Part shown: positions 6,361-36,940 of the stretch, one piece after another | Numbering within the stretch: the stretch's first letter is position 1 | Layout of the letters: every line of letters begins with the position of its first letter | Assembly: GCA_903813345.2 (NCBI GenBank) | Contig: CAIIXF020000003.1 | Location: 3,126,109-3,190,108, forward strand | Direction of reading: 5' to 3' | Length of the DNA stretch: 64,000 nucleotides | Source of the DNA: Owenia fusiformis | Taxonomy: Eukaryota; Annelida; Polychaeta; Sabellida; Oweniidae | Position numbers and translations under genes: made by a program | The notes under the pieces: generated by a model | Seen by the model: only the letters and a program-made list of their open reading frames with translations | What the model was told of the DNA's origin: nothing | Databases searched by the model: none

Positions 6361-6828
6361 GACCATCATGTACCAACTTCAGATGTGCAATTCAAAAAAC
6401 TATTCAAAAATTACCCTGTACTTACTTCCGATGTGCATGAAATGTAGCAACTAAAAATATATTCACCTTTTCAGATATTCACTTACTTCCGATGTGTATG
6501 AAATGTAGCAACTAAAAATATATTCACTTTTTCGGATATTCACTTACTTCCCATGTGCATGGAATGACAAATATATTCACTTTTTCGGATATTCACTTAC
6601 TTCCGATGTGCATGAAATGTAGCAACTAAAAATATATTCACTTTTTCGGATATTCACTTACTTCCCATGTGCATGGAATGACAAATATATTCACTTTTTC
6701 GGATATTCACTTACTTCCGATGTGTATGAAATGTAGCAACTAAAAATATATTCACTTTTTCGGATATTCACTTACTTCCCATGTGCATGGAATGACAAAT
6801 ATATTCACTTTTTCGGATATTCACTTAC
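6361..6828 (-). repeat. exon-end/5' splice-site minisatellite D (53/61-bp units)
   Basis: Seven tandem copies, plus one degenerate copy near 6375, of the 3' end of the 6829-6978 exon followed by GTAAGT and about 35-40 bp of intron. Donors on the minus strand sit next to 6420, 6481, 6542, 6595, 6656, 6709 and 6770, and the genuine one at 6823-6828. Spacing alternates 61, 61, 53, 61, 53, 61, 53, so the higher-order unit is 114 bp. All seven full copies keep GTAAGT. Use of any decoy would add an in-frame TAA directly after the exon. Confidence 0.92.
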
Positions 6829-6978
6829 TTCCGATGTGCATGAAATGACGCATATGTGAAACTCTTCCCCTCGTACTCTCCGAAAAATTTACTATTTTTC
6901 AGCTGTATGTGATAAATCTCATTCCCGGAGCATCTGCCATAAAGTCTTTGCCATTCTGAATCAGAATCCTGGCCTTCC
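6829..6978 (-). CDS. KCNT: Slo2 exon: RCK1, [16 protein letters not shown] to [10 protein letters not shown]
   Basis: 150 bp, acceptor TTGCAG, donor GTAAGT. Encodes [18 protein letters not shown] and [20 protein letters not shown], nearly the same as vertebrate KCNT at this point. Phase links AG|G on the 5' side and AA|G on the 3' side. Its last about 19 bp plus donor are the seed of the tandem array directly downstream. Confidence 0.96.
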
Positions 6979-8376
6979 CTGCAAGCAGAAATAAACATAT
7001 CTTAGGGATTTCATTAGCAGCAAGCAACGGGCAATTTTCACAGGTCGTTTTCACAAAATCGCCTGTAGTTTTTAAGGACTTTTCAACGTTCCCATGTAAA
7101 ATTCCCTGTATCTTTTATAAGTAGCCTTCCAGCCAAGGGAAATTGATGGGAACTTTATCAATAATCATCTTGGTTGGTTGGGTCGAATAAATAAAATGCA
7201 ATCTGCAACATACATTCTCTTAGATTATTTTTCGATGTTATTATATTTTTCCAGTCTCCGAAAAAAAAAACTTCTCGAATCGTCTCGATTCAGATACAAT
7301 GATATTTTTGAAATAGTTGTTTTTCGTAAAACAGCATTTAATGCAATACATATTGTATCATGCACACCTGAGCACTGATGTTTTTTCCTCAGGTTATCCT
7401 CTGTTATTGTAAAAAAACAATAAGTATGAGTTAAAATAAGTAATATAATACCCTATGGCCATGGTCCCATATGGTCAACAGAATTAACTCTTGTGTTAAA
7501 TCTAGTTCGCTGGAAGATGTTTTTACAGAAAACCATCTAAGCAACTGATCAGATTTCGTAAACATTTCCGAATTCTCTTAATACTGAGTGTAGCTTTGTA
7601 CAAAGAGTGTTTAAAATTAAACCTGTATATTAGAACAAAATTTCAAGTTAAACCTTAAACTCCAAATTAAACCTTAAATTCCAAGTTAAACATGAGTGAA
7701 ATTCGATTATGGGAGGTTTTACTATTTTTGAAACTCCAAAGCTTCAGGTAGCATTCCCAAATTCAATAGACTAGATGCGAGTAGAAAAAATCTTGATTTA
7801 CGCCATCAAATATTCAAAATTCAGTCAAAGCGATGTTATATTTGAAATCTACATGTAAAAGTACATCTAGAAATATGGCTTCGAAAATTGTTTATCAAGT
7901 TTGAAAATTTAATTATTTTTGAAAGTGTGACTTCTAGTTCGGGTTGATTCTCCATAGAGCCCATGTTACAAAATCACAAAAAGTGAAATATCTTTTCTTG
8001 TATTGGTCAGATAACATTTTCATTTACTGGACATATTTTGATTTGCATAACTATTAGATACATAAGGGTTATATGAAAATTAAACCACTAAAACAGATGT
8101 AATTTAAGTTTAAGGGAACTTTCTACTATAGCCGCCATGTTATCTGACCCGAACGGGCCACCTGGTGGTGAAACTGGGAACTACCTACTCACATCTGCGT
8201 TATTGCCGCCTGACAGTTTAACAGTGACAGTTTAACCTACTATTTTATGGCCAACTCATTTAATAAATATGAAAAAACCACTATTCCATTCATATTTCAA
8301 TGAGTTGGCCATTAAAATAAGTTAAACCATCAGCCAGCAGTTGGAATTCTTGAACGCTACCAAAGGGTTTACTCAC
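6979..8376. other. intron with one foldback element
   Basis: About 1.4 kb of AT-rich intron. Apart from the foldback at 8230-8327 I see no coding or repeat structure. Confidence 0.5.
8230..8327. repeat. small foldback (inverted repeat) element
   Basis: Arms of about 30 bp (left starts GTTTAACCTACTATTTTATG, right ends AATAAGTTAAAC, sharing the GGCCAACTCATT core as complements) surround a short loop. It is 50 bp upstream of a splice donor (8377) on the intron side. Confidence 0.75.
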
Positions 8377-8485
8377 CTTCCTCTTGATGTATGTGTCAAT
8401 AGTGTTATAAGTGTAGATGCCCCAGGGCACAGACAATTGTTGGCTAATATAGCATATTTGAATTCATCCTCACATACCACATGCT
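8377..8485 (-). CDS. KCNT: Slo2 exon: RCK1, [20 protein letters not shown]
   Basis: 109 bp, acceptor GTCTTTCAG, donor GTGAGT. Encodes [20 protein letters not shown] followed by [16 protein letters not shown], matching the conserved DHVVCEEECKYAMLALNC block of KCNT RCK1. Phases are G|AG in and AG|G out. Confidence 0.95.
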
Positions 8486-8714
8486 CTGAAAGACAACAAC
8501 AATTTACTGATTTTCAAATTTAATCTAAACCGAGCTGAGGGAGATTTTCTCAATATTTTACTTCTCGAGTGATAAACTAAAACTGACCATACATAACCCT
8601 TATATAATCTATACATCATTAATGCAGCTTTTTTAGGTATTGTTGCTCCCTAGAGGGTTGCCCCACTACCTTATAGATTAAATAAAATAAAAGAACTGAA
8701 TGAAAACTACATAC

Positions 8715-8823
8715 CTGCAAACTTGACGTGGAATTTATTTTCAGGTCTAAAGATTTGGACATACTGTGGGCAGTGTGGGGCAAAATCTCTGACAGCCCAT
8801 GACCTCATTATTGTATGCTGGTC
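8715..8823 (-). CDS. KCNT: Slo2 exon: RCK1, [16 protein letters not shown]
   Basis: 109 bp, acceptor TGTTCCAG, donor GTATGT. Encodes [18 protein letters not shown] and [16 protein letters not shown], matching the ILRAWAVKDFAPNCPLYVQ region of vertebrate KCNT. Confidence 0.95.
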
Positions 8824-9089
8824 CTGGAACAAATCAGAAATAAAGAATAGAAAATAAGATTAAGCCCTCACTTTTTCGTAGATTCATGATTTCATTCGAT
8901 CCATTCATTTTAATTTTTTTCCATTATTTTTTTTATTTTTTCATTATTTTTCATTTTCACATTTTTTCATTCTATTACATTTTTCCTTTTAATTTTACAC
9001 TACCATTTTTAAGTTTTTGGAATACAATGCATTTTTTTAAATGATGAACAAATATGAGATGAGATGTTGTTTTGTATAAAGAACCTTAC
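8824..9089. other. short intron with T-rich tract
   Basis: The plus strand is very T-rich (runs of TTTTTCATTATTTT), giving a long A-rich tract in the transcript. No coding signal. Confidence 0.5.
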
Positions 9090-9153
9090 AGCAGCATTCC
9101 TGTCCGCATAGTTCCTCTGGGCCAAAATAAAGCAAGCCTCGGCATCTTGCATT
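9090..9153 (-). CDS. KCNT: Slo2 exon: RCK1, MQDAEACFILAQRNYADRNAA
   Basis: 64 bp, acceptor TTATAG, donor GTAAGG. Encodes MQDAEACFILAQRNYADRNA, aligning with [20 protein letters not shown] of KCNT1. In-frame with both neighbours. Confidence 0.93.
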
Positions 9154-9229
9154 CTATAATAATAAAATGGAGAGGGTTATTGGCTACAGATTAAAAATAA
9201 ACCGTTGCACATAAAAACTCAAAACTGAA

Positions 9230-9865
9230 AGTTGTAGATTACAACTCTAGAGCTCCAAATTGTAACCATACATCAGCAGATAACAACTCAACAGCTGCAG
9301 ATTACAACCTTACTGCTGCAGATTACAACTCAAAAGTTGCATATAACAACTCTACTCCTGCAGATTTCAACTCAAAAGGTGCATATTACAACTCAAAAGT
9401 TGCATATTTCAACTCAAAACCTGCAGATTTCAACTCAAAAGCTGCAGATTACAACTCAAAAGCTGCAGATTTCAACTCAAAAGGTGCAGATTACAACTAA
9501 AAAGCTGCAGATTACAACTCAAAAGCCGCATATTACAACTCTTCTGCTGCAGATTTCAACTCAAAAGTTGCAGATTACAACTCAAAAGCTGCAGATTACA
9601 ACTCAAAAGTTGCAGATTACAACTCAAAACCAGCAAATTACAACTCAAAAGCTGCAGATTACAACTCAAAAGTTGCAGATTACAACTCAAAACCTGCAGA
9701 TTACAACTCAAAAGCTGCAGATTACAACTCAAAAGTTGTAGATTACAACTCAAAAGCTGCAGATTTCAACTCAAAAGGTGCAGATAACAACTAAAAAGCT
9801 GCAGATTTCAACTCAAAAGCTGCAGATTTCAACTCAAAAGCTGCAGATTACAACTTCATTTCTTA
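9230..9865. repeat. minisatellite, about 20-21 bp unit
   Basis: About 28 copies of ACTCAAAAGCTGCAGATTACA and close variants (GTTGCAG, ATTTCAACTC). It sits in the intron between two RCK1 exons. Open frames on both strands (about 134 aa plus, 65 aa minus) are by-products of a repeat length near a multiple of three. The unit contains CTGCAG but no GTAAGT, so it is not one of the exon-end arrays. Confidence 0.93.
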
Positions 9866-9937
9866 TTATCACTATAATTTGAGAATTTGACACAAATCAA
9901 CAAAATTACAGTATTTACCCAGAATTCCCAAACTTAC

Positions 9938-10074
9938 CTGCATCTATTTAGATCAGAGTCTTTCAGCACAGAACCCTGGATGTATATGACCCTCTGTGCC
10001 CAAATAGGGACTGATAATATCATCTTAATGGTGGGTTCAAGTTCACAGGGAGATAACAGCACAACATAATAGTC
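9938..10074 (-). CDS. KCNT: Slo2 exon: RCK1, DYYVVLLSPCELEPTIK
   Basis: 137 bp, acceptor ATTGTAG, donor GTAAGT. Encodes DYYVVLLSPCELEPTI and WAQRVIYIQGSVLKDSDLNR, matching DYYVVILCPTEMD and QRVIYLQGSALKDQDL of KCNT1. This is a beta-alpha-beta part of RCK1. Confidence 0.95.
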
Positions 10075-10499
10075 CTACAATAAATAATATTCAATTCTTT
10101 TTAAAAACTGTTTTTGAAGTCCTGTGGGAAAACAGTGTTCATTCCAGGTCTGAACAGTATACACTGTATATGTAATTTGAAGAATTTAGTCTTATTTATT
10201 TTTCTTTTAAATAGTTTTACAGTAATTTTTTTATATTGTTGGACGGACGTTTGGCCCTTATAGGGAATAAGTAAAAATAAATCCTATTAAATATATAATG
10301 TATATTAAATGTAAGCTTGTATATAAACTAAAAAATACTGAATTTTGGCAAATACAAAATTTTGTTTTAGAAGGTTTACCACAGTGATCATACAGAGTTG
10401 ATAGACTGGGTATGTAGAAAACAAAAAACGTGTATAATTTATAATATAAATGTTACTAAAGGACTGTTAGGGAGATTTTTTACAGTCCCTCAGGATAAA

Positions 10500-10767
10500 A
10501 CCCATATCTAAAAAATGTTTGCTCATTTGTAATTTTGGGTGCGCCTAGAACAAAAGGTCCATTATTTTGGGAGATTTTTATAGTCCCTAAGAGGACACTA
10601 TTATTTCCCTCAGGATAAAACCCATATCCAAAAATTACATGTATGTTTACTCATTTGTAATTTTGGGTAGGCATAGATCAAAAGGTCCATTTTGATAGTC
10701 CTAAAGAAGATACTATTGCTTCCCTCAGGATAAAACCCATATCCAATACTAATAATATGTTACTCAC
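10500..10767 (-). repeat. decayed exon-end/5' splice-site duplications (array E)
   Basis: Two extra copies, spaced about 128 and 113 bp, of the last about 25 bp of the 10768-10932 exon plus following intron. Each keeps a CACCCAAAATTACA-like exon end (ACCCAAAATTACA in the nearer copy), but the donor has changed from CAGGTGAGT to CAAATGAG(T/C). Intron sequence such as TGGGTTTTATCCTGAGGGA repeats with them. It looks like the earlier or decayed form of the same process as arrays A-D. Confidence 0.8.
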
Positions 10768-10932
10768 CTGTAATTTTGGGTGGGCGTAGAATTCATTTAA
10801 GAAGTCCATGATGCTCTCTGTGTGTAGTGTAGTGGCACATACAACAACATGTTTCTCATTCTGAGCCCTATGGGAGCTGTATGTCCCCCCTTGTTTCTGG
10901 CGCTCCATCCAGGTGTACGCCAGTTGTTCAAA
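10768..10932 (-). CDS. KCNT: Slo2 exon: post-S6 to RCK1 start, WMERQK...EKHVVVC
   Basis: 165 bp, exactly 55 codons, acceptor TATGACAG, donor GTGAGT. Encodes [20 protein letters not shown], then [20 protein letters not shown] and [14 protein letters not shown]. This is the most recognisable Slo2 stretch: the end of the S6 linker and first beta strand of RCK1. Confidence 0.97.
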
Positions 10933-10957
10933 CTGTCATAAGAAAATGGTACAATAT

Positions 10958-11125
10958 ACAATTGTTGACCTCTCCAGAGGTCAACCGGCAAAATTGTATA
11001 CCGAGACTGTAAACCGAGAAACTACTGTTGACAGAGACCGAAGGTCGAGGTCAACAGTAGTTTCAAGGTTTACAGTCGAGGTATATGATTTTGACGGTTG
11101 ACCGAATGGAGAGGTCTACAATTGT
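10958..11125. repeat. long hairpin (inverted repeat), end of a MITE-like element
   Basis: Two arms of about 75 bp. Left begins ACAATTGTTGACCTCTCC, the right reads as its inverted copy ending GGAGAGGTCTACAATTGT. Related sequences occur at about 21.5, 23.3, 24.4 and 27.8 kb. The left end is only 22 bp beyond the acceptor AG of the exon at 10768-10932, so the element probably supplies or overlaps the branch-point zone of that intron. Confidence 0.85.
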
Positions 11126-11550
11126 TTTGTTAGTCAGAAGAAACTAATAATACACATATAGACGACAGACATCAATCATGGCTTCATTTCACAATCTTTT
11201 CTCCGAACCACGCCAGCAATAATTTGTTAAGAAAATCAGAAGACAGTGGTAGCTAGACTCTCTGTAGTAAATTAATGTTAATTTTGCGTTTCTATTTGTA
11301 TTTTTGCTATACTCGTCGTCTAGCAAAGTCAAAATATCACTTTTATCAACGTTTACAAAATGTCCGTCTTCAATTTTGTTTTCTGTAAACATTGTGACGT
11401 CATATTCCCCATAATTCACAAGTGTAGTACAGTAACATACGCGGTCAATAATATGATATCCCATGATGCACAGGTGAGGTACAGGCAAAACTGTTGACCG
11501 CTAATTGACCAATCAGATGCGAGTATTTACACTGAGGTACTAACAATATA
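11126..11550 (-). mobile_element. body of dispersed element with vestigial 99-aa ORF
   Basis: The sequence from the hairpin to the CTAATTGACCAATCAGATGC segment recurs at about 22.9-23.3, 27.3-27.8 and 28.0-28.3 kb. A minus-strand ORF (11189-11488, 99 aa) contains DILTLLDDEYSKNTNRNAKL. Its spacing resembles the N-terminal SAM-like segment of eukaryotic tyrosine recombinases, but no catalytic domain is present. The other copies carry point changes and frameshifts. Probably a non-autonomous derivative; family not established. Confidence 0.5.
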
Positions 11551-11892
11551 AACTGGTACAAAGAATGAAATCAATAAACCAAAGATGGGGTGTTCTGCTT
11601 GGTGTGTAGATATATAACATTGTAAAATAGTATTTCCATTTTATAGCATTTTCATTGTAAAAAGTATTTCCATTGTGAAAAAGTTTTTTCTTGAATTGAA
11701 CTGAATTAGAAGGTGCCTCATGTACTTAATCAACAGTCACTATAGCAACCATAATTTTGGACGCAGTTTTGTCACTAACCTTTGACTCAAACATATATTT
11801 GTCGTAGTTTATGTCTGCCAAGTTTTATGAAATGACGCAAACTATTGTAAAATTACCTTGTAAAACTACATTGTACCTTTTATTTGCCATAC

Positions 11893-13387
11893 AGAACTTT
11901 ACCTGCGTTGGTAGAACTATATAAAAGCTGATGCTATAAGAAGTGTAGTGAAGAGTTGACTTGGCCAGATGACTGGGCTTATGTCCCCATAGCCATGAAC
12001 ATTAGAGAATGTGACTTACCTGCGTTGGTAGAACTATAAAAGCTGATGCTATAAGAAGTGTAGTAAAGAGTTGACTTGGCCAGATAACTGGGCTTATGTC
12101 CCCATAGCCATGAACATTAGAGAATGTGACTTACCTGCGTTGGTAGAACTATAAAAGCTGATGCTATAAGGAGTGTAGTGAAGAGTTGACTTGGCCAGAT
12201 ATCTGGGCTTATGTCCCCATAGCCAACAGTAGAGAATGTGACTTACCTGTGTTGGTAGAACTATAAAAGCTGATGCTATAAGGAGTGTAGTAAAGAGTTG
12301 ACTTGGCCAGATAACTGGGCTTATGTCCCCATAGCCATGAACATTAGAGAATGTGACTTACCTGCGTTGGAAGAACTATAAAAGCTGATGCTATAAGAAG
12401 TGTAGTAAAGAGTTGACTTGGCCAGATAACTGGGCTTATGTCCCCATAGCCATGAACATTAGAGAATGTGACTTACCTGCGTTGGTAGAACTATAAAAGC
12501 TGATGCTATAAGAAGTGTAGTAAAGAGTTGACTTGGCCAGATAACTGGGCTTATGTCCCCATAGCCATGAACATTAGAGAATGTGACTTACCTGCGTTGG
12601 TAGAACTATAAAAGCTGATGCTATAAGAAGTGTAGTAAAGAGTTGACTTGGCCAGATAACTGGGCTTATGTCCCCATAGCCATGAACATTAGAGAATGTG
12701 ACTTACCTGCGTTGGTAGAACTATAAAAGCTGATGCTATAAGAAGTGTAGTAAAGAGTTGACTTGGCCAGATAACTGGGCTTATGTCCCCATAGCCATGA
12801 ACATTAGAGAATGTGACTTACCTGCGTTGGTAGAACTATAAAAGCTGATGCTATAAGAAGTGTAGTAAAGAGTTGACTTGGCCAGATAACTGGGCTTATG
12901 TCCCCATAGCCATGAACATTAGAGAATGTGACTTACCTGCGTTGGTAGAACTATAAAAGCTGATGCTATAAGAAGTGTAGTAAAGAGTTGACTCGGCCAG
13001 ATAACTGGGCTTATGTCTCCATAGCCATGAACATTAGAGAATGTGACTTACCTGCGTTGGTAGAACTATAAAAGCTGATGCTATAAGAAGTGTAGTAAAG
13101 AGTTGACTTGGCCAGATATCTGGGCTTATGTCTCCATAGCCAACAGTAGAGAATGTGACTTACCTGTGTTGGTAGAACTATAAAGGCTGATGCTATAAGG
13201 AGTGTAGTAAAGAGTTGACTTGGCCAGATATCTGGGCTTATGTCTCCATAGCCAACAGTAGAGAATGTGACTTACCTGTGTTGGTAGAACTATAAAGGCT
13301 GATGCTATAAGGAGTGTAGTAAAGAGTTGACTTGGCCAGATATCTGGGCTTATGTCTCCATAGCCAACAGTAGAGAATGTGACTTAC
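11893..13387 (-). repeat. exon-end/5' splice-site minisatellite C (112/115-bp units)
   Basis: Thirteen copies (the farthest near 11893 with an altered donor) of the last about 108 bp of the pore/S6 exon plus GTAA. Donors fall at 12014, 12129, 12241, 12356, 12471, 12586, 12701, 12816, 12931, 13046, 13158 and 13270; the genuine donor is at 13382. Each unit runs from GTCACATTCTCTA through the pore/S6 code to CAG, then GTAA, then the next GTCACATTC. The three copies beside the real exon are 112 bp; most distal ones are 115 bp with GTTCATGGC in place of TGTTGGC. Copies are almost identical. Confidence 0.97.
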
Positions 13388-13571
13388 CTGTGTTGGTAGA
13401 ACTATAAAAGCTGATGCTATAAGGAGTGTAGTAAAGAGTTGACTTGGCCAGATATCTGGGCTTATGTCTCCATAGCCAACAGTAGAGAATGTGACGATGA
13501 CAAACCAGAATGACTGGAATAAATCCATGTGTGTGTAGCCTGCCCTCTGAATGTGTTGTATACCACACATA
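13388..13571 (-). CDS. KCNT: Slo2 exon: pore loop and S6, TVGYGD filter
   Basis: 184 bp, acceptor AATTTCAG, donor GTAAGT. Encodes CGIQHIQRAG, the pore helix (LFQSFWFVIVTFS), the selectivity filter TVGYGDISP, then [19 protein letters not shown] of S6. The filter is intact, so a K+-selective pore is expected. A second AG eighteen bases upstream (TTTTTCAG|TATGTG) copies the real acceptor context (TTTCAG|TATGTG) and would break the phase. Confidence 0.98.
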
Positions 13572-13825
13572 CTGAAATTATATGCCACATACTGAAAAAT
13601 CCACCAACTTTCATATCTAGATATCTATTTTGGAAAATCTGAAAATCACTGAAACTAAACTATAAACTAAATATGTGAAGTTGAGCAAATCCGCCAAATT
13701 AACCAAAGTCATATTAAGTGAGTTTAGTCAAATTAAGTACACTACAGTATGTCACCACTTCAAATTGGTAGTGACAAAAATTACCAAATTTTCATACATC
13801 AACTTTTATTATGGGAAAAACTTAC

Positions 13826-13920
13826 CTTGTAAATATAAGACATGCTATTGTGACTGCTAAAATGACTAACTGCTGAGCCAATGCTGACTGATTTTTCTGC
13901 ATTACTCTGTGGAGATCATT
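13826..13920 (-). CDS. KCNT: Slo2 exon: S5 region, NDLHRVMQKNQSALAQQ
   Basis: 95 bp, acceptor GTTTTCAG, donor GTAAGT. Encodes NDLHRVMQKNQSALAQQL and VILAVTIACLIFT, i.e. the S4-S5 link and hydrophobic S5. Homologous to NDLHRAILRTQSAMFNQ and the following S5 of KCNT1. Phase AG|T gives Ser before MCGIQH. Confidence 0.95.
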
Positions 13921-14235
13921 CTGAAAACATGTTTAACGTATATTAAAACTCAGGTTGGGCCATAGGATATTGGGGTTCATTTTTTTCTGAAAACATGTTA
14001 AACGTACATTAATAAGACATTACATTGATTAGAAATACTCCTGCAAGGGTGTAAATATTACTGATATGTATATATGATTAAAATAAAAATAAAAAACTAA
14101 GTTAGAACCAGTAGAACCAGTCTTAGTGGAACACATTTGGTACCTCTGTCAAGTGTTTCACTTGAGAGGTGTTCCACTTATAGAGGTTCATCTAACATTA
14201 AGTCAGTTTGTCTTGGGACTCTAAAAAAATATATT

Positions 14236-17231
14236 AATATACCTACAAGCATATTCCCCAAAACTAACTTGGCCAAAATATATTAATATACTTACAGGCA
14301 TATTCTCCAATGCTGACTTGGCCAAAATATATTAATATACTTAACTTATACAAAAAACGAACTTGGTTAAAATATATTCATATACTTACAAGCATATTCC
14401 CCAATACTAACTTGGTTAAAATATATTAATATACTTACAAGCATATTCTCCAACGCTGACTTGGCCAAAATATATTAATATACTTACAAGCATATTCTCC
14501 AACGCTGACTTGGCCAAAATATATTAATATACTTACAAGCATATTCTCCAATGCTGACTTGGCCAAAATATATTAATATACTTACAAGCATATTCTCCAA
14601 TGCTGACTTGGCCAAAATATATTAATATACCTACAAGCATATTCCCCAAAACTAACTTGGTTAAAATATATTAATATACTTACAAGCATATTCTCCAACG
14701 CTGACTTGGCCAAAATATATTAATATACTTACAAGCATATTCTCCAACGCTGACTTGGTTCAAATATATTAATATACTTACAAGCATATTCTCCAATGCT
14801 GACTTGGCCAAAATATATTAATATACTTACAAGCATATTCTCCAACGCTGACTTGGCCAAAATATATTAATATACTTACAAGCATATTCTCCAATGCTGA
14901 CTTGGCCAAAATATATTAATATACCTACAAGCATATTCCCCAAAACTAACTTGGTTAAAATATATTAATATACTTACAAGCATATTCTCCAACGCTGACT
15001 TGGCCAAAATATATTAATATACTTACAAGCATATTCTCCAACGCTGACTCGGCCAAAATATATTAATATACTTACAAGCATATTCTCCAATGCTGACTTG
15101 GCCAAAATATATTAATATACTTACAAGCATATTCTCCAATGCTGACTTGGCCAAAATATATTAATATACTTACAAGCATATTCTCCAACGCTGACTTGGC
15201 CAAAATATATTAATATACTTACAAGCATATTCTCCAATGCTGACTTGGCCAAAATATATTAATATACCTACAAGCATATTCCCCAAAACTAACTTGGTTA
15301 AAATATATTAATATACTTACAAGCATATTCTCCAATGCTTACTTGGCCAAAATATATTAATATACTTACAAGCATATTCTCCAACGCTGACTTGGCCAAA
15401 ATATATTAAAATACTTACAAGCATATTCTCCAATGCTGACTTGGCCAAAATATATTAATATACTTACAAGCATATTCCCCAAAACTAACTTGGTTAAAAT
15501 ATATTAATATACTTACAAGCATATTCTCCAACGCTGACTTGGCCAAAATATATTAATATACTTACAAGCATATTCTTCAACGCTGACTTGGCCAAAATAT
15601 ATTAATATACTTACAAGCATATTCTCCAACGCTGACTTGGCCAAAATATATTAATATACTTACAAGCATATTCTCCAAAACTAACTTGGTTAAAATATAT
15701 TAATATACTTACAAGCATATTCTCCAACGCTGACTTGGCTAAAATATATTAATATACTTACAAGCATATTCTCCAACGCTGACTTGGCTAAAATATATTA
15801 ATATACTTACAAGCATATTCTCCAACGCTGACTTGGCCAAAATATATTAATATACTTACAAGCATATTCTCCAACGCTGACTTGGCCAAAATATATTAAT
15901 ATACTTACAAGCATATTCTCCAACGCTGACTTGGCCAAAATATATTAATATACTTACAAGCATATTCTCCAAAACTAACTTGGTTAAAATATATTAATAT
16001 ACTTACAAGCATATTCTCCAACGCTGACTTGGCTAAAATATATTAATATACTAACAAGCATATTCTCCAACGCTGACTTGGCTAAAATATATTAATATAC
16101 TTACAAGCATATTCTCCAATGCTGACTTGGCCAAAATATATTAATATACTTACAAGCATATTCTCCAACGCTGACTTGGCCAAAATATATTAATATACTT
16201 ACAAACATATTCCCCCATACTAACTTGACCAAAATATATTAATATACTAACAAGCATATTCTCCAATGCTGACTTGACCAAAATACATTAATATACTTAC
16301 AAGCATATTCTCCAACGCCGACTTGGCCAAAATATATTAATATACTTACAAGCATATTCTCCAACGCTAACTTGGCCAAAATATATTAATATACTTACAA
16401 GCATATTCTCCAACGCTGACTTGGTTAAAATATATTAATATACTTACAAGCATATTCCCCAAAACTAACTTGGTTAAAATATATTAATATACTTACAAGC
16501 ATATTCTCCAACGCTGACTTGGCCAAAATATATTAATATACTTACAAGCATATTCTCCAACGCTAACTTGGCCAAAATATATTAATATACTTACAAGCAT
16601 ATTCTCCAACGCTGACTTGGCCAAAATATATTAATATACTTATAAGCATATTCTCCAATGCTGACTTGGCCAAAATATATTAATATACTTACAAGCATAT
16701 TCTCCAACGCTGACTTGGCCAAAATATATTAATATACTTACAAGCATATTCTCCAATGCTGACTTGGCCAAAATATATTAATATACTTACAAGCATATTC
16801 TCCAATGCTAACTTGGCTAAAATATATTAATATACTTACAAGCATATTCTCCAACGCTGACTTGGCCAAAATATATTAATATACTTACAAGCATCTTCTC
16901 CAACGCTGACTTGGCCAAAATATATTAATATACTTACAAGCATATTCTCCAACGCTGACTTGGCTAAAATATATTAATATACTTACAAGCATCTTCTCCA
17001 ACGCTGACTTGGCCAAAATATATTAATATACTTACAAGCATCTTCTCCAACGCTGACTTGGCCAAAATATATTAATATACTTACAAGCATATTCTCCAAC
17101 GCTGACTTGGCCAAAATATATATATATACTTACAAGCATATTCTCCAACGCTGACTTGGCCAAAATATATTAATATACCTACAAGCATATTCTCCAACAC
17201 TGACTTGGCCAAAATATATTAATATACTTAC
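14236..17231 (-). repeat. exon-end/5' splice-site minisatellite B (49-bp unit, about 61 copies)
   Basis: Each 49-bp unit, read on the minus strand, is GGCCAAGTCAGCGTTGGAGA plus ATATGCTT (the code for AKSALENML, the last codons of the S4 exon), then GTAAGTATATTAATATATTT and T. The array fills most of the intron after the 17232-17315 exon. Most copies keep GTAAGT; a minority have GTAGGT. Some copies have variant exon parts (TTAGTTTTGGGGAATATGCT). Variant types recur in a regular order, pointing to amplification of multi-unit blocks. Confidence 0.98.
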
Positions 17232-17315
17232 AAGCATATTCTCCAACGCTGACTTGGCCAACCAACAGTTGAGGAAAACTGGTATGAATAAATTTCTCAG
17301 AGGTTCAGAAAATAT
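17232..17315 (-). CDS. KCNT: Slo2 exon: S4, [21 protein letters not shown]
   Basis: 84 bp, acceptor TATTTTCAG, donor GTAAGT. Encodes [20 protein letters not shown] and KSALENML, nearly the same as [24 protein letters not shown] of KCNT1. Like other Slo2 channels this segment lacks the regularly spaced arginines of voltage-sensing S4. Its last 28 bp plus donor are the seed of the 49-bp array. Confidence 0.97.
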
Positions 17316-25241: not shown

Positions 25242-25246
25242 AAAAA

Positions 25247-26524: not shown

Positions 26525-26770
26525 ACAAAATACTCATCGGCCAGGTGCCATACTGAACAAAATACTCATCAGCCAGGTGCCATACTGAACAAAATACTCA
26601 TCAGCCAGGTGCCATACTGAACAAAATACTCATCAACCAGGTACCATATTTTACAAAATACTCATCAGTCAGGTGCCATACTGAACGAAATACTCATCAG
26701 CCAAAATAACCCCCTTTGTAGTCCCAAATAAGTGATAAATAGGCCGGTTTGAACAAAATACTCATCCACC
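26525..26770. repeat. tandem repeat, about 32-bp unit
   Basis: Five to six copies of ACAAAATACTCATCAGCCAG plus GTGCCATACTGA. It derives from one block of the surrounding repeat family, which is single-copy in the other family members. Confidence 0.85.
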
Positions 26771-27254
26771 AGGTGCCATACTGAAAGTAAGGGCAAATGT
26801 GACCAAGGCATAAGGCTCAGGGAAAGTCAAATCTCAATTCACTCTTTCTGTCTGTTCTATAAACAGACATACAAACATTCAATTCAAGTTTGACTTATAA
26901 ATTAGATGTATATGCTGTTCAATAAATATAAATTCACCAAACAATTGGTTTTATAGAGTTTTACTTTTTGAATATTAAATTCATTTTCCAGGGTTACAAA
27001 ATTAAACTTATAAACATATGAAAAGTTGTATAGTTCTTTGAATAGGTTATATTTATCTTCTTAATTTGATATGGATTTTTTAACCACATTTGATACTATC
27101 TTTTTTATACTATTAAGTTTATTATGAGAACATTTTTTGAGAAGATTTTTACAAGAATTTCCTTTTGATTGTTTACTAAACTTTACTGGAATCTTTCTTG
27201 TTAGTGTGTTTATTATTGAGACTGATTCTGATTGGTTGATGAGCAGTCAACAAT

Positions 27255-27480
27255 ATGTATTGTTAGTACCTCAGTGAAAATACCCGCATTTGATTGGTCA
27301 ATTAGCGATCAACATTTTTGCCTGTACCCCACCTGTGCATCATGGGATATCATATTATTGACCGCATATGTTATTGTTAGTACCTCAGTGTAAATACTCG
27401 CATCTGATTGGTCAATTAGCGGTCAACATTTTTGCCTGTACCTCACCTGTGCATCATGGGATATCATATTATTGACCGCT
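27255..27480. repeat. tandem duplication, about 117 bp
   Basis: The segment from ATTGTTAGTACCTCAGTG to ATATTATTGACCGC occurs twice head-to-tail, within a copy of the element also seen at 11.1-11.55 kb (opposite orientation). Confidence 0.8.
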
Positions 27481-29167
27481 TATGTTACTGTACTACACTT
27501 GTGAATTATGGGGAATATGACGTCATAATGTTTACAGAAAAAACATGGTAGACGGACATTTCGTAAACGTTGATGAAAGTGATATTTTGACTTTGCTAGA
27601 CGACAAGTATAGCAAAAATACAAAAATAAACGAAAAATTAACATTAATTTACTAGTGAGTACGCAGTTATGTGCCAAAAACAGAGAGTTTAGCTACCACT
27701 GTCTTCAGATTTTCTTAAAAAATTATTGCTGGCGTGGTTCGGAGAAAAGATTGTGAAATAAGCCATGATTGATGACTGTCGTCTATATGTGTATTATTAG
27801 TTTCTTCTGACTAACAAAACAATTGTAGACCTCTCCATTCGGTCAACCGTCAAAATCATATACCTCGACTGTAAACCTTGAAACTACTGTTGACCTCGAC
27901 CTTCGGTCTCTGTCAACAGTAGTTTCTCGGTTTACAGTCTCGGTATACAATTTTGCCGGTTGACCTCTGGAGAGGTCAACAATCGTATACTGTACTACAC
28001 TTGTGAATTATGGGGAATATGACGTCATAATGTTTACAGAAAAAATGGTAGACGTACATTTTTATGTTGATGAAAGTGATATTTTGAGTTTGCCAGACAA
28101 TAAGTATAGCAATAATACAAATAGAAACGTAAAATTAACATTAATTTACTAGTGAGTATGCAGCGATGTGCCGAAAATAGAGAGTTTAGCTACCATTGTC
28201 TTCAGATTTTCTTAAAAATTATTGCTGGTTTGATTCAGAGAAAAGATTGTGAAATGAAGCCTTGCCGATCGATGACTGTCATCTATAAGTGTATTATTAG
28301 TTTCATACGACTAACATTTAACAATTGTAGAAAATCATATATCCACCAGGTACCATGCTGAAAGTCAGGGCAAATGTGACCAAGGCATACGGCACAGGTA
28401 AAGTCGAATTTCCATTCACTCTTTCTGTCTGTTCAGAATACAAAGATTCAATAAAGTTAGATTAATAGTTAGATCAGGCAACGGTTAGATATCAAGACAT
28501 AATACTGTTTGATAATTATAGATTCACCAAATAATTGGTTTTATACAGTTTTACTTTTTGAATATTGAATTCATTTTCCATGTTACAAAATTAAACTTAT
28601 AAACATATGAAAAGTTGTATATTTATTTGAATATATATTTATCTTCTTAATTTGAAATGGATTTTTTAACCACATTTGATACTATTTTTTATACTATTAA
28701 GTTTATAATGAGAATATTAAGATTTTTACAAGAATTCCTTTAAGTTTGTTTACTATACTTTACTGGAATCTTTCTTGTTAGTGTGTTCATTATTAAGACT
28801 CAATTCTGATTGGTTGATGACCCTTAATAGGTACTTTTGACCACTATTTTTGAAAAAAAGTTATTTTTAAAATTTCGAAAATTCTTTTTTTAAATTTGAA
28901 AAAGAATTTGTGAAAAAATGACCAAAAACATTTTTTATAAATTTAAAAGATTATTAAAAATTGTTTTCAATTTCAAAAATTTTTTTAAAAAAATGAACAA
29001 AATTTATCTTTTTTTAACAATAATTTTTCATTTTGCAGTATCAATAAAAAATCAAACTTACTATTTTCACGCCTGGTGATCATACAAAATGAACAGAGGA
29101 GGGGGGAATAGGCGATTTCTCCAAGAAAATTCAACAAATCTGAAAGATTTCTAAATGCAATACATAC

Positions 29168-29276
29168 CTTATATCCTAGATATGTCACCAGAAGTGTCTC
29201 AGCCAGGCTTATACAGGCGACTGTCACCTGGGTGATCCACAGGGCCATGTCCCTTTTCACCCACAACATCATTTCC
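29168..29276 (-). CDS. KCNT: Slo2 exon: S2, MMLWVKRDMALWITQVTVAC
   Basis: 109 bp, acceptor TATTTTAAG, donor GTATGT. Encodes EMMLWVKRDMALWITQVTVA, then CISLAETLLVTYLGYK, matching [20 protein letters not shown] and SFLETMLLIYLSYK of KCNT1 (S2). Joins TG|G with the preceding loop exon to give NWEMMLW. Confidence 0.96.
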
Positions 29277-32200
29277 CTTAAAATAAATTAATACTGGGTG
29301 AGCCAAAAAAGCCAAAACATCATTTCCCTAAAATAAATTAATACAGGGTGAGCCAAAAAAGGTAACAACAAAAAATGTATGTTAATAACTCAGTCATTCA
29401 GCCTGGGTTAAAATCATATTAAACCTCGTTTAATGTTCTTTCATTCTACTCAGTGCCATTGGTCTAAATCCCTAATGGTCATTTATTAAACATGCTCAAA
29501 ATGCCGAAATGTGCCTCACTGACTGGACATAAATGTGACTTGACATAAATCCCACCAGATTTTTATCCGTGGGCCTATTTTCCACCCCCCCATGACCGAT
29601 GCCTGTGTTAATTCGAGTCATAAATCATTTCAAACCTATCCCTCTGACCTATTCTCAACCAATCTGCGAGTTGGAAGGCACAAGAGCTAAATGTGTGCAC
29701 AATAATTATGCGATTATATCAGAGAAATGACTGTGCATAGAAAGTCGTCCGTATTTCGACGACAAACTCTGATTTGCTCGGTTAGATCAGAGATTTATTG
29801 CAAACTGAAAGAGTGAAGACAGAGCTTTCTTTTAAAAAGTGAAATCAGAAAGGTGTTGAGATATATAAGTTTTACTGTATTCTCCAGGGTGTTACTAAAA
29901 GAGGGCAAGTTGACATATATTGACATATATTTTCTCGTTGATTATGCCCCTCGAGTGGTCACGACTCAGCTGTCTCAAAGTCGCAATACCTCATTAGATA
30001 ATTCTGCTACAAAATTTATTCAGTGAATATACTAATAGTGTGATCATTTGGAAGATAGTGAAAAGCAACTTATTTCTTAGCAAGAAGCAATAATATTATT
30101 TTTACAATTTGTGTGACGCTATTGAAGTGATCGACTCCGCGGCTCTATATCACTTCAGAGAATGCGAAATTAGATTTCAGCGAGTTCATTACATCATTAG
30201 GGTTATCCAATAACGATAATTAATTTCCTTTATATTTATCAAAACAGTCCAACTCATTCGATCGAGTCTTTTACTTGATTACTTCGATGCGATTTTCTAT
30301 TTTGCTTTTTCCTGGATACATTAAAATAATATTTAAAGTTGAAAATAAAACAGAAAAATAATACAGAAAAATATTATTTTCATATCTTGTTCTTACGTAT
30401 AAGAAATGTGGAGAAATGTGGATGGATAAACAAATGTGGTCACTAATGAGAAAATGATACTATGATTTCTCGAAGGACTCATAATAAGCCAGAATAAGCA
30501 TCTTTGAGCAGATTTTGTCAGAACTGTCAAAATGTAGACTTTGCGACAACTGAAAGTCTCCGATAAATCGGACTACGTATACCCCCGTGTTTACATTAGG
30601 GGATTAGAAGAGTTTATTTTTATTTAGGTATGCAAGCAATATAAATATTAGGCCTTCATGCATGTACTCGTGTGTACAATCAGCATGCCCTTGAATATTA
30701 TATAAACCAGGCTATTCAGGTACTACATAATGTACACTATTTATGTGTGTACTACATGGGAATACGATTCCCTGGGGAACAAAACACAAATACTTTTTAT
30801 ATGTTCAAAATGAGCCATTTGATTGATGCATACACTTAATAGCTCATTAATAACATCTACAAAGTATATCTAATAGTAATTTTCAATGTCAATGGTGAAA
30901 CTTGCCTGTTTACGTTTACGGGAAATCAACATGTAATGGGACGAAGATTGTTCACCTTCCTGACTTACCTCTGAAGCCTGTACCTTGTAATCTCTTTATA
31001 TAGGTTAGCGAGAGCGCTGCGCCTGCACAGTTTTAAACTTTGGCGCACACTTTAAGACAAGGCGTAAACATGCAAAATATCACTACCTGCCATTTGTCAC
31101 AGATGTGACCAACAACCACCGAACACCGAATGCCAGATGCTATCACAAAAAGTAACAATATGTCACCATTTGTGATGGTGACATTTAAACTTTACATGAT
31201 GCACACTGGTCTATCTAATGTAAAATCTGTCTTCATTAAAACACCTGTATCTAGTGAACACCTCTTACAAGTTAACACCTCTCTCTAATGAACACCTCTT
31301 TCTACTGAACACCTGTCTCTAGTGGACATCCTTCCTCTGTACACATTCTACTGAATTCTGTATAAAATACCCTCTTTGTAGTGAACACCTACTAGCACTT
31401 AACATTTTTTTCTCGTTAAAAAATGTTCAATATACACAGGTTTTACAATACTGTAAACCCAGTCTCACCATAATGTTACTGAGAGAACTCAAAATTGCCA
31501 AAAGTGTTCAGAATAGCAGGTGTTCATATTTCAAGGTTTCTTTAACATGGGAGCCAAAGGGAGATGATAAAACTGGGGTCAAGAGAAAAAGTGTTCATAT
31601 TGGCAGGTGTTCATATTGGTAGGTGTTCATATTGGTAGGGTTAAAAATGAAGATTGTATTGTTATTTGTTGGACTGGGCAAAAGTGTTTAGAAAATGAGA
31701 TATTCACATTTCAAAGTTCTTTTAACATGTCAATTGGAGATAACAAAACTCACTGAAAAGTGTTCATATTAAGAGGTGTTCAGACTACAGAGGTATTCAG
31801 ACAAATAGGTTTACTGTAGTTTCAACGAAAATCTGTACTTTTATTACATTACGGGCAGTGTCCTTTCTCATTAGTAATCCTAGATTATTGTTAGTAAGAT
31901 TAGGGGGGATTAACCCTAATACTCAATCCTTTTTAAATCTTTAATCGATCAATATTGCACTAAAAGGTGATCTTCATTATGAACTTAATGGCTCTGGAAA
32001 CTGGAAAAATTGTGTAGTGAACATATGTGTGAAAAGAACACCTGTATAAATTGAACACCACAAGAAAAGGAACACCTCTATAACTAGAATGCTTCTATGA
32101 ATGGAACACCTCTGTCAATGGAACACCTTTAACAATTAAAAATAGCTATGAATTTTATTTTAAATGCACTCCAGTAAATAAAAACTACAAACAGCAGTTT

Positions 32201-32840
32201 TTCTGTATATAAATTAGTTGCAGGATTTTTTTCTAATTTCAACAATTTTCATACAATTTACACAAAAACTGTTTTAAAATGTTTAGAAATGATCTCTTTT
32301 GTCTAATTTTACTAAATTGAGCGTCATCTGTTTATATGTACAGTGTGTTGTATATGTAGTAAAGTGTCAAAAGCTGCCAAAAATGAAAAAATTTCTGGTT
32401 TCAACTGATTTCAGTACCTGGGATTCAAGAGGTTAATTCAGTAAAACATTGGTTTAAAATGAATTAAACGGTAAAACATAATGCTATGATTTTATAGTTC
32501 AACTTTTGTGAGCCATTTCAAAACAATCATATAATTATAGAATTGCATCACAAGTGCCTGGGTATTTCAAATTAACGGAATAATTAAGTTTGATGTTTTT
32601 AGAACATTTCCAGCGTATTCAATAGAATTCCTTCTATAAATATGAACAATATTATGAAGATTAATATGTAATCATACAGCTGTGCGATCATTTTCAATTA
32701 TAGGAGATTGTTTATAATCTATCGCATAATTTCCTCTTTATTAAATCGCATGAATTACTGATACGCTTTATGATATTCTTCTAAAACTAATTAAGTGGAT
32801 TATTGAAGCAGTTGACACCAAACCAGTTTCCATATGGATG
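29277..32840. other. intron with dispersed-repeat copies
   Basis: Large AT-rich intron part. Copies of the TGAACACCTCT family lie at about 31225-31445, 31490-31810 and 32030-32130. A segment at 31065-31150 (AACATGCAAAATATCACTAC) recurs at 63135-63225. The first 70 bp of the intron (ATCATTTCCCT...GGTGAGCC) are a two-copy repeat of the acceptor region. No exon found. Confidence 0.5.
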
Positions 32841-32849
32841 AATAAACAA

Positions 32850-32950
32850 AAGGAGCACACGCGTCTCGAACTCGCAACCTCGTGGTTACAGCGCCCAATT
32901 GCCTAGCCTGAACATGCCAGCGCTCAAGCCCTCTCGGCCAACTCGACAAC
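32850..32950 (-). repeat. tRNA-like sequence, probable SINE head
   Basis: On the minus strand a box A-like part (GTTGGCCGAGAGGGCTTGAG) and a box B-like part (GAGTTCGAGAC) have Ser/Leu-tRNA spacing, with TTTT shortly after. The acceptor ends do not pair, so it is not an intact tRNA. A tRNA-derived SINE or tRNA pseudogene fits. Confidence 0.5.
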
Positions 32951-33623
32951 CCCCAAAAAGTTGTTTTGTCAGTCGATCTGACTAGAGGCAGCTGATGTTA
33001 ACGCTCGAACACACCAGAGAAAGCACAACAGACATTTTCTACACACACACACCCAGAACCCAGAGCAGAGAAACTTTGTATATAATACATTTCTCTAATC
33101 CAGACATGTACCTCCTAATCTGACCACTCTGTCTTAGTCCTGATTTTGTGATCTCTCATTGACTCCAAATCATAATGAGGCATTGACATGACAAAATTTT
33201 GAGCACTTCTCAAGTGATTTTAGCCATATTTGGGCCAAAATTGTCAATGTGAACCCCCCCTGGAAATTTTTGAAAACTGAACCCCCCCTTGGCAAATCCT
33301 GGCTACGGGCCTGGAGACTATACAAATATATCAACACTTGTGGACATTTGAATATGCCACAAATGCAAGATAAAAGCAGAAAATGCAATGATTGCATCTT
33401 TGAATGGGGTTGTTGTTCTTGCTGGACGACAATTTTCAGCTTGAACAAGATTTCCTAGACAACAATCTATATTCTTCTGTAAAAACAGACTGCCTGACTT
33501 AATGTTAATTCTGTTGACAAGGAAATGAATGACTGTCATTACATTATACTTAGGAAATAATCTCGTCTATGATGCAGCCATGGAAATGCAGTATTCAAAT
33601 ATTTCAAAACAAGTTTCTTAGTT

Positions 33624-34463
33624 ATGTCTGTCTTGCGTAATCTTTTTTCTTCCGCTTCTACGAAGTCAAATAATAGAATTCAGATAATACACAACTCATA
33701 TGGTTTGATGATTCTGTACATTAGGGAACCTTTAGATCTAATGCCTCATCCTCAGACCAGGCCTGACAGATACAAACTGATAAATTGCGATGCTTTGACA
33801 CCTCAAGAGATAACAAGCCAATTCTATCAGTTCCATTTGAGAAGACATATTGATAGTTTAGAGGCCCTTCAGATGTGAAATCTGATGAGTATGGGAATGA
33901 CAGATACTTATGGCTTCTATTTACGAACAAGAGTTTTTAATGGAACTGTTCAACCATGTGGTGAAACGCAATTACGGGCTAAATTCTCAACATGTAAATG
34001 ACTTTTGCCTGTTCAACGCAACTTAATAAACAACGCCCTGGTGACCAAAATTACACTGACAAATCTGGAAGGGGGAGGGGGGGGGGGGGGATCTAGGGGT
34101 CACAGTGGGCTCCAATTTTTCAGAAATTGTTAATTTTAGAATACTGAGAAGACTTGGTAAATAGCAATGACAGGTGAAACAGACACTACAGACATAAATG
34201 AATGTAGAAACTACCGTATACATATCGCAGTTTTTGCTGGTACCACCAATTTTCATCAAAGGGCAGACAGTGAACCCGCAGGAGGACGACTCGTCAATCC
34301 CAAAAACTTGATGTTTAAGCCAAAAAGGGCTCACATTTTTCCCCACTTTAATTCAAAAATATATTTTTCAAAAGGCTATAAATTTCTAGATCAGCCCTCG
34401 GATCTAAAGTCAGAGATTCTAGAACGAAATACAAAGTGGAATATGAAGTGGAAACAGAAATGA
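33624..34463 (+). pseudogene. two adjacent unrecognised ORF pieces, possible gene relic
   Basis: Plus-strand ORFs at 33624-33878 (84 aa) and, in another frame, 34167-34463 (98 aa) lie close together in the same direction. The stretch between has a third in-register fragment (TDTYGFYLRTRVFNGTVQPC). The amino-acid composition looks protein-like rather than repeat-derived, but I recognise no family. A processed pseudogene or frameshifted mobile-element ORF would explain it; chance remains possible. Confidence 0.22.
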
Positions 34464-35134
34464 TTAAGGTGAAGTAAGGTGCGGCAGCATGACTTTCATG
34501 GTAATGAAAACAATACAACTTGCTAAGCCCAGTTCAAGTATGATATATGTCATTTCTAGGAACTGCCATGAAAAACATTTCCTGAAATTCAATTGTTTTT
34601 CACTATGTTACCATAGCAACATCATCAAGTACAATTAAAGTAAACAAGTAACACTATTAATATTCTAACAATTTCCAATTTCAAGAAACAGAAACTACGC
34701 AAAGTTACTCGTAGATCATTTATTTTAACCATGAATATAATGATGTCACAGTTAGAGAACAATGAACTTTACGAATTCTTAACTTTACGAAGTTTCTGTT
34801 AATGGTCCCCGATTATGGGATTATTCTTATTGGTTTAGAACACTGCCCTCTGATTGGTCCTCGAAGTGTTTGGATTGGAAGCTAGGTAAAATATTTTACT
34901 CCTTTATGATCCTTAAATGGCTGGTTACGCTTAACTTACCCCCCCCAAAGGCCTCTAACATTTCTCACCATCTATATTATGGACCTAATCTATTGTATTT
35001 CCATTTATTTCCAGTTTGATATGTTTTTTATATTGCCGACAATGTTGAAAATCATAGACAATAATATTGAATAGTATTTTTATTTATTATATATGGAATA
35101 AAAGAAAATTGAAAAAAAAACCAAAAAAACTTAC

Positions 35135-35212
35135 CAATTGATATGTGGATTCTCCCTGAACTCTGATAGTGATTTTGCAGTATGGTTGAAGCATGACTTC
35201 ATATCTTTCTCG
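35135..35212 (-). CDS. KCNT: Slo2 exon: S1-S2 extracellular loop
   Basis: 78 bp, acceptor GTTTTCAG, donor GTAAGT. Encodes EKDMKSCFNHTAKSLSEFRE and NPHIN(W). It has a Cys and an N-H-T glycosylation sequon, as expected for an extracellular loop. KCNT1 has a loop ending EINW before S2 at the same point. Both phases fit (TG|C and TG|G). Confidence 0.88.
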
Positions 35213-35629
35213 CTGAAAACACAAGTAAGTGCATTAAAATTTTATGGAAAAGTTTTATGCCATTCTTTACTTTGAAAATGATGTCTAATTAGAGGCATTA
35301 AAATAGTAAAAAAGGTATGGTTAAGACATAAGGAAAATATAATACAGGAGTTTCACTAGAATTTCCCACAACAGGCTAAATAAATGAAAACAACAGGCAA
35401 AATTAATGGAAATCATGAATTTAACATGGAAAAGATGAAAAGTCCCTAAAAACAACAGGCAATTTTGTGAAAACAACTGATGAAAATCGCCTGTTGCATG
35501 ATGCGAATGAAAACCCTGTACGTGATCCGATGAATCTATTTAGAGAAGCATTAAATCTTATTTTATTTTAAATCTTCTACAATTTTCAACTCTTTCATAT
35601 CACCAAGTGAAGTTTGTAAGAGGGGGAAA

Positions 35630-36858
35630 ACTTACCATTCGTCTGTGTAGACACTCACTACATAAACGACACATGTTAGCAGCTTGATTATAAGACTTAG
35701 GTGCAGATGTACTTACCATTCGTCTGTGTAGACTCTCACTACATAAAGGACACATGTTAGCAGCTTGATTAAATAAGACTTAAGTGCAGATGTACTTACC
35801 ATTCGTCTGTGTAGACTCTCACTACATAAACGACACATGTTAGCAGCTTGATTAAATAAGTCTAAGGTGCAGATGTACTTACCATTCGTCCATGTAGACT
35901 CTCACTACATAAAAGGACACATGTTAGCAGCTTGATTATAAGACTTAGGTGCAGATGTACTCACCATTCGTCTGTATAGACTCTCACTACATAAAGGACA
36001 CATGTTAGCAGCTTGATTATAAGGCTTAGGTGCAGATGTACTTACCATTCGTCCATGTAGACTCTCACTACATAAAGGACACATGTTAGCAGCTTGATTA
36101 TAAGACTTAGGTGCAGATGTACTCACCATTCGTCTGTATAGACTCTCACTACATAAAGGACACATGTTAGCAGCTTGATTAAATAAGTCTTAGGTGCAGA
36201 TGTACTTACCATTCGTCCATGTAGACTCTCACTACATAAAAGGACACATGTTAGCAGCTTGATTATAAGACTTAGGTGCAGATGTACTCACCATTCGTCT
36301 GTATAGACTCTCACTACATAAAGGACACATGTTAGCAGCTTGATTATAAGGCTTAGGTGCAGATGTACTTACCATTCGTCCATGTAGACTCTCACTACAT
36401 AAAGGACACATGTTAGCAGCTTGATTATAAGACTTAGGTGCAGATGTACTTACCATTCGTCTGTGTAGACTCTCACTACATAAAGGACACATGTTAGCAG
36501 CTTGATTATAAGACTTAGGTGCAGATGTACTTACCATTCGTCTGTGTAGACTCTCACTACATAAAGGACACATGTTAGCAGCTTGATTATAAGACTTAGG
36601 TGCAGATGTACTTACCTTTCGTCTGTGTAGACTCTCACTTCATAAAGGACACATGTTAGCAGCTTGATTATAAGACTTAGGTGCAGATGTACTTACCATT
36701 CGTCCGTGTAGACTCTCACTACATAAAGGACACATGTTAGCAGCTTGATTATAAGACTTAGGTGCAGATGTACTTACCATTCGTCTGTGTAGACTCTCAC
36801 TACATAAAGGACACATGTTAGCAGCTTGATTATAAGACTTAGGTGCAGATGTACTTAC
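35630..36858 (-). repeat. exon-end/5' splice-site minisatellite A (81-84-bp unit, 15 copies)
   Basis: Each unit has the last about 55 bp of the S1 exon, from TAATCAAGCTGCTAACATGT to ACAGACGAATG, then the donor GTAAGTACATCTGCACC and a few more intron bases. The genuine donor is at 36853-36858. Fifteen copies follow, three of them with GTGAGT instead of GTAAGT, both strong donors. Because 81 is a multiple of three the array also gives open minus-strand frames with a 27-aa MCPLCSESLHRRM unit; this frame is not the channel frame. In the channel frame a decoy donor would be preceded by TAA. Confidence 0.97.
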
Positions 36859-36940
36859 CATTCGTCTGTGTAGACTCTCACTACATAAAGGACACATGTT
36901 AGCAGCTTGATTATAAGGTTGAAGATTCTAATTCGTAAAC
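36859..36940 (-). CDS. KCNT: Slo2 exon: S1, LRIRIFNLIIKLLTCVLYVV
   Basis: 82 bp, acceptor TTTGCAG, donor GTAAGT. Encodes LRIRIFNLIIKLLTCVLYVV and RVYTDE, matching [20 protein letters not shown] and VRVLLDD of KCNT1. Phase A|GT gives the Ser of NQRSS. The strongest ORF here is in another frame and hides this exon. Confidence 0.96.

Follow-up and report, generated by a model that had tools for sequence, protein, structure and literature searches.

Why should several introns of a single gene begin with long tandem arrays built from the end of the preceding exon and its own splice donor? The question is raised by a Slo2/KCNT-type K+ channel gene on the minus strand of a 64,000-nucleotide stretch of the Owenia fusiformis genome (contig CAIIXF020000003.1; hereafter the window). 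The donors of its exons E2, E5, E7, E8, and E13 each lead into tandem copies of the exon's 3′ end plus the donor, and similar arrays occur over acceptors of the same gene, in a gene that lies inside one of its introns on the other strand, and in several unrelated genes elsewhere in the genome. In all likelihood, these arrays are mirages, a term coined for amphioxus, in which founder duplications astride exon edges have expanded into the intron while splicing kept to the exon-proximal site and the array itself stayed close to neutral. The five donor arrays, with copies counted in register with the donor, are as follows.

35630..36917, minus strand: donor array of E2 (S1 exon, 36940-36859), 16 copies of about 81-84 bp at spacings of 81-83, with up to 58-59 bp of exon plus the donor
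14226..17261, minus strand: donor array of E5 (S4 exon, 17315-17232), 61 copies of 49 bp, with 30 bp of exon plus the donor
11899..13495, minus strand: donor array of E7 (pore/S6 exon, 13571-13388), 14 copies of 112/115 bp
10440..10790, minus strand: decayed donor array of E8 (RCK1 start, 10932-10768), 3 copies of about 115-120 bp at spacings of 113 and 128
6377..6849, minus strand: donor array of E13 (late RCK1 exon, 6978-6829), 9 copies, mostly alternating between 53 and 61 bp

All five had been described in the initial annotation and exist where it placed them. Together they comprise 103 copies, 98 of them besides the genuine ones, and the strong donor GTRAGT is kept in 91 of the 103: in 16/16 at E2, in 53/61 at E5 (GT in 60/61), in 13/14 at E7, where the last copy reads GTAAAG, and in 8/9 at E13, where the last copy is decayed. 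At E8, GT has changed to AT in both extra copies, so that four arrays (E2, E5, E7, and E13) keep strong donors in most copies, just as had been stated. The earlier estimate of about 95 decoy GTAAGT/GTGAGT sites needs trimming, as GT is indeed kept in 95 of the 98 extra copies but the full hexamer in 86. The E7 unit consists of 108 bp of exon and just four intron bases, GTAA, and in its 115-bp copies an extra 3 bp stand among the selectivity-filter codons; such copies therefore do not look kept as protein code. Copies 5-10 of this array, all of 115 bp, are 0.98-1.00 alike between neighbors versus 0.92-0.93 alike to the exon copy, the usual sign of homogenization within a cluster. The copy farthest from the exon has a weaker donor, or none, at E5, E7, E8, E13, and a PR-domain gene described below, which makes five of the six donor arrays; the exception is E2, whose farthest copy still reads GTAAGT. 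It had also been offered as a clue that the genuine exon is always the 5′-most copy, with expansion only into the intron, but this follows for any array lying over a donor.

Arrays are found at the other exon edge as well. In addition to the window, 60 kb adjoining on the gene's 3′ side were examined, sequence that formed no part of the data behind the initial annotation; coordinates there are given on the stretch L009, where the window coordinate equals the L009 coordinate minus 10000.

29261..29361, minus strand: two-copy 50-bp duplication over the acceptor of E3 (S2 exon, 29276-29168), detected with TRF and boundary BLAST
L009 7773-8096: acceptor array of X4, 30-bp unit, 11 copies, AG kept in 7/11
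L009 7092-7452: acceptor array of X5, 114-bp unit, three copies with the full acceptor
L009 4852-5543, plus strand: donor array of a PR/SET-domain gene, 14 copies of 47 bp, nested in the KCNT X5-X6 intron on the opposite strand

Both boundary types of KCNT thus carry arrays, five at donors and three at acceptors (E3, X4, and X5), the last two being those found among exons X1-X5; the genome sample described below likewise holds both. In the X4 and X5 arrays the genuine exon is the 3′-most copy, and use of either of the two decoy acceptors nearest to X4 would lengthen that exon in frame, by 30 or 60 nt, without a stop. As in mirages, many but not all copies keep their splice signals, both in the donor arrays and at X4. 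The exon of the nested gene encodes a PR domain (PF21549, 2.7e-16), and the four most distal copies of its array have GTAC in place of GTRAG. Two side observations belong here. The intron upstream of X2 holds a decayed partial copy of the exon's middle (76% alike, L009 about 9600-9655), possibly a relic of an old mirage. The E13 intron (window 6280-6450) and the intron part of the E3 repeat (29261-29361) share a ACAGGGTG..AAAAAAG-like motif, reminiscent of a DNA-transposon end, and perhaps such a motif seeded some of the duplications.

Which of so many near-identical sites is used? The KCNT exons E1-E14 were assembled by hand, with E2 joined directly to E3, and give one open frame across the spliced model, with AG preceding 14/14 exons and GT following E1-E13; the best match in PDB is KCNT1 (5u70, E 3e-244). 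The closest protein, at 95% identity over the whole query, is the partial annotated Owenia fusiformis protein P0001, which takes the exon-proximal site for its exon junctions at six arrays (E2, E5, E7, E8, E13, and X4), uses none of the 95 GT decoys, and includes no repeat-bearing isoform. In line with the original claim that decoy use would give a frameshift or stop, a stop results from 95/95 GT decoys in the spliced model; this model joins E2 to E3, yet the stop falls inside the array. By its own description, the published Owenia gene set drew on RNA-seq and splice-junction hints, with 99.29% of transcripts supported by RNA-seq (PMC9977687), although P0001 may not belong to that set. For the published mirages, the Adh3 data and RT-PCR of globins suggest that regular splicing is undisturbed (PMC3087553).

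The position of the arrays can be set against chance within the gene. Over 26 exons and 67.6 kb, some edges being approximate, there are 24 arrays with a period of at least 30 and at least 1.9 copies, of which 5 span donors and 3 span acceptors, i.e., 8 lie at exon edges; the window part of these counts was selected because an earlier reader had noticed it, the 3′ extension was not. When one unit per array is placed at random as a founder, 0.57 donors and 0.57 acceptors would be expected, or 1.09 edges together, and a total of 8 is reached in 0/20,000 placements (P 0.0003 for donors only). Within the gene's span in the window, 4/5 arrays with a period of at least 40 and at least 3 copies span a donor, versus 0.12 expected under founder placement.

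Recurrence, the central claim of the initial annotation, also holds well beyond this gene, since units of unrelated sequence occur at five KCNT exons, in the opposite-strand PR-domain gene, and in unrelated genes on contigs C1-C3. The 498-Mb genome was searched for exact motif triples, with the same motif read backwards as control and with the matches clustered, many per array, and not independent events. At gaps of 40-70, the donor motif AGGTAAGT gave 654 triples versus 376 for its backward form, and at gaps of 70-100, 527 versus 312; the acceptor motif TTTCAGGT gave 685 versus 63 at gaps of 40-70. The donor excess agrees with recurrence although the backward word is the commoner one singly, in counts made over 210 kb only (21 stretches, 7 of them beside the KCNT locus): GTAAGT 100 versus TGAATG 199, and AGGTAAGT 7 versus TGAATGGA 10. 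For acceptors the control is the rarer word in the same stretches (TTTCAGGT 15 versus TGGACTTT 8).

Distinct arrays were then read by eye among the matches listed, about the first 100 per motif. The matches listed for AGGTAAGT cover about 101 Mb and contain 13 such arrays, of which 12 have a primary period of at least 48. For the backward donor motif the corresponding figures are about 103 Mb, 9 arrays, and no more than 3 with such a period; for TTTCAGGT they are about 136 Mb, 16 arrays, and 12. As the AGGTAAGT pattern catches 0/5 of the window's own donor arrays, such arrays are probably more numerous than these counts suggest. The exon side of all 13 donor-motif arrays was examined, and an exon-like first copy was seen in 10, nine of which have both an acceptor-like AG and a frame that runs open into the first donor, while in L040 the frame is open throughout the stretch. 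Firm matches were obtained at 5/13: Muted (5.9e-15), NIF phosphatase (4.9e-6), the neurotransmitter-gated channel domain Neur_chan_LBD (2.4e-15), MRPL52 (mL52; 4.2e-7), and SSE1/HSP110 (3.6e-8, with Pfam HSP70 at 0.0047, below the cut-off). A tetraspanin match of 0.058 also falls below the cut-off, and four others are recognized by their open frame alone. Among 9/16 acceptor-motif arrays, hand-picked for examination, four run into an exon-like frame: a C2H2 finger (zf-H2C2_2, 1.7e-13); a ubiquitin hydrolase (USP, 1.6e-5 by PDB, without a Pfam match); a frame with tRNA_SAD at only 0.034 and no PDB match, which we take to resemble alanyl-tRNA synthetase; and a 71-aa frame without a family.

Several results weigh against the mirage explanation, quite apart from the small base of the single-word counts. 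The choice of splice site is read from one annotated, partial protein, P0001, which ends before the X5 acceptor array. Acceptors alone are in only modest excess over founder placement (3 versus 0.57, P 0.019), and those with at least 3 copies even less so (2 versus 0.36, P 0.05). Under a harsher null that places whole arrays, the 12 arrays of the window span with a period of at least 30 include 5 over donors versus 1.45 expected (P 0.005). The KCNT locus is a local array hotspot, with array DNA making up 19.8% of 84 kb versus 6.3% of 140 kb in 14 random stretches. In these 14 stretches of 10 kb (17 arrays, exons unannotated), only one array repeats GTRAGT, and by eye it reads as coding ankyrin-type repeats; Pfam matched 8 of 20 hand-picked open reading frames (ORFs) from them at E<=0.001, too thin for an exon baseline. 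Genome-wide, plain GTAAGT triples at gaps of 40-70 number 9224 versus 8001 in the control, an excess that is small even before correction for clustering. Finally, no exon was seen at 3/13 donor-motif arrays, one of these a short-period repeat, nor at 2/9 of the acceptor-motif arrays, three more of which extend beyond the examined stretch. Two candidates were considered and rejected: L022 4016-7205, which by eye reads as an ankyrin-type coding repeat, and L024 3422-5065, a 285-bp array with a TSP1-type exon in several units (one copy searched), i.e., a tandem exon duplication.

How might such arrays arise? The founder would be a tandem duplication, short and local, that lies across an exon-intron boundary, an event that is probably frequent in the Owenia genome at donors and acceptors alike. 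Gain, loss, and homogenization of copies, through unequal exchange or slippage, could then expand the array into the neighboring intron. Coding selection would act only on the copy that is continuous with the remainder of the exon, leaving the others to drift and homogenize. If splicing uses the exon-proximal site, that is, the first donor or the last acceptor, as exon definition and its shortest exon would favor, then the decoys would be silent and the array close to neutral. The excess at edges over intron interiors could reflect either a mutational bias or the preservation of recognizable arrays through re-seeding from the conserved exon copy. It is conceivable, though the balance tips somewhat against it, that Owenia has a genome-wide, exon-edge-biased process of local tandem duplication whose activity at donors and acceptors exceeds that in intron interiors several-fold; edges would then be hotspots of minisatellite birth, e.g., through transcription- or splicing-coupled damage, and the process would be shared with distant animals such as amphioxus.

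The explanation first proposed was a donor-specific one, in which amplification seeded by the exon and its donor, perhaps linked to R-loops or to replication slippage at the 3′ ends of exons, places copies of the exon end and donor in the intron. Donors are indeed the larger class in KCNT (5 versus 3 acceptors) and reach the highest copy number (up to 61), and AGGTAAGT triples outnumber their backward control. Against this stand the acceptor arrays in KCNT and elsewhere in the genome, with 16 acceptor-motif arrays in about 136 Mb versus 13 donor-motif arrays in about 101 Mb among the matches listed, a comparison limited by the different single-word frequencies of the two motifs. A 5:3 split is, moreover, too small to establish donor bias, and both boundaries are reported in amphioxus (PMC3087553). 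Specificity for donors is accordingly improbable, and founder duplication at either edge is retained as the better account.

A second alternative, of comparably low standing, is that the arrays are kept by selection, the decoy donors acting as U1 landing sites for splicing tuning or as a guard against early polyadenylation in long introns, or the acceptor copies giving in-frame isoforms. The 86 GTRAGT decoys kept across four donor arrays would fit such a role, as would the two nearest X4 decoy acceptors with their in-frame additions, and the donor columns of the E5 array are more conserved than its exon columns (0.970 versus 0.928, the last two copies being out of register). The other intron columns of E5, however, are as conserved as the donor, at 0.974. 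Furthermore, use of any of the 95 GT decoys in the donor arrays runs into a stop, the E8 decoys have been lost, distal pore (E7) copies bear the insertion among the selectivity-filter codons, and P0001 shows no repeat-bearing isoform.

In assembly, tandem arrays can easily collapse or be given the wrong copy number, but an assembly artefact or mere chance is hardly credible here, considering that the units are unlike in sequence, sit on eight edges of one gene and at unrelated genes, and compare with 1.1 edges under random founder placement, and that the published Owenia genome was built from PacBio reads with an N50 of 25.75-30.75 kb, exceeding every array here (PMC9977687), though it may not be the window's assembly.

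It had been stated that no system of this kind was described, but the mirages of amphioxus clearly are one. Published accounts define mirages as minisatellite-like tandem duplications of exon-intron boundaries, both 5′ and 3′, in Adh3 and in the globins BflGb6 and BflGb9, with units of 10-160 bp, AG or GT in many but not all copies, length instability, and homogenization within clusters (PMC3087553). Their mechanism of origin is stated there to be unclear (PMC3087553), and mirage-type repeats are also reported in amphioxus Adh, troponin C, and PGBD5 (PMC3902484). The Owenia arrays, in the one assembled haplotype studied, resemble them in four of six features, namely boundary-spanning units, both boundaries, partial retention of signals, and homogenization. 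They differ in belonging to an annelid, in reaching 61 copies, in occurring in several unrelated genes of one genome, and in touching 9/26 exons of one gene, counting the X2 relic and the two-copy E3. Lancelet PGBD5, in contrast, is described as having imperfect repeats in one gene, the 108-bp one being a triplication (PMC3902484). Internal tandem repeats at exon-intron boundaries have been reported in human segmental duplications (PMC2812944), and intron gain through tandem duplication is also known (PMC4974935). Both systems share with Owenia repeats or duplications at exon-intron borders, but they are linked to new introns, whereas in Owenia an existing intron is lengthened (PMC2812944, PMC4974935).

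The Owenia arrays are not new in kind, not donor-specific, and not confined to one gene. A human parallel is the 6-16/IFI6 minisatellite with multiple splice donor sites, reportedly studied by Turri, Cuin, and Porter in 1995 and said to have a 12-bp unit with several donors used in frame. The likeness to Owenia is that the donor is carried in the minisatellite unit; the difference is that the Owenia decoys lead to stops and none is used in P0001. A literature search with limited terms found no report of mirages outside lancelets, and, as far as that search goes, what is new in Owenia is that the host is an annelid, that the arrays are so dense, and that they extend to unrelated genes.

The remaining features of the locus are listed below.

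1..53763, minus strand: the part of the Slo2/KCNT-type K+ channel gene in the window, continuing below window position 1 to about L010:6153
minus strand: KCNT exons in the window, E1-E14 with E2b, then E15 (2315-2107), E16 (1646-1563), and part of X1 (from 72), with approximate edges for E15, E16, and X1
35135..35212, minus strand: exon E2b, the S1-S2 linker (EKDMKSC..HINW), without an array; read from P0001 and the ORF list, coordinates by hand

E2b, at about 35.2 kb, is the one exon that P0001 adds to the hand-built model. The C-terminal end of P0001 is the exact end of X4, just before the X5 acceptor array, and mirages may in this manner break automatic gene models. Elsewhere in the window, 43633-45114 on the minus strand holds a 494-aa open frame that, by eye, resembles the reverse transcriptase of a non-LTR (long terminal repeat) retrotransposon. 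Positions 45570-46081 and 50068-50579 have identical tandem-repeat rows and a shared peptide, exactly 4498 bp apart, an arrangement like that of the paired ends of an LTR-type element.

That mirages are so dense in an annelid, lie at both edges of exons, and extend to unrelated genes suggests a general way for introns to lengthen and for splice sites to increase in number. The arrays also constitute a natural experiment in which the spliceosome chooses one donor among up to 61 near-identical ones. Moreover, by counting them one can test whether exon edges are especially prone to tandem duplication, a step that has been proposed toward intron gain.

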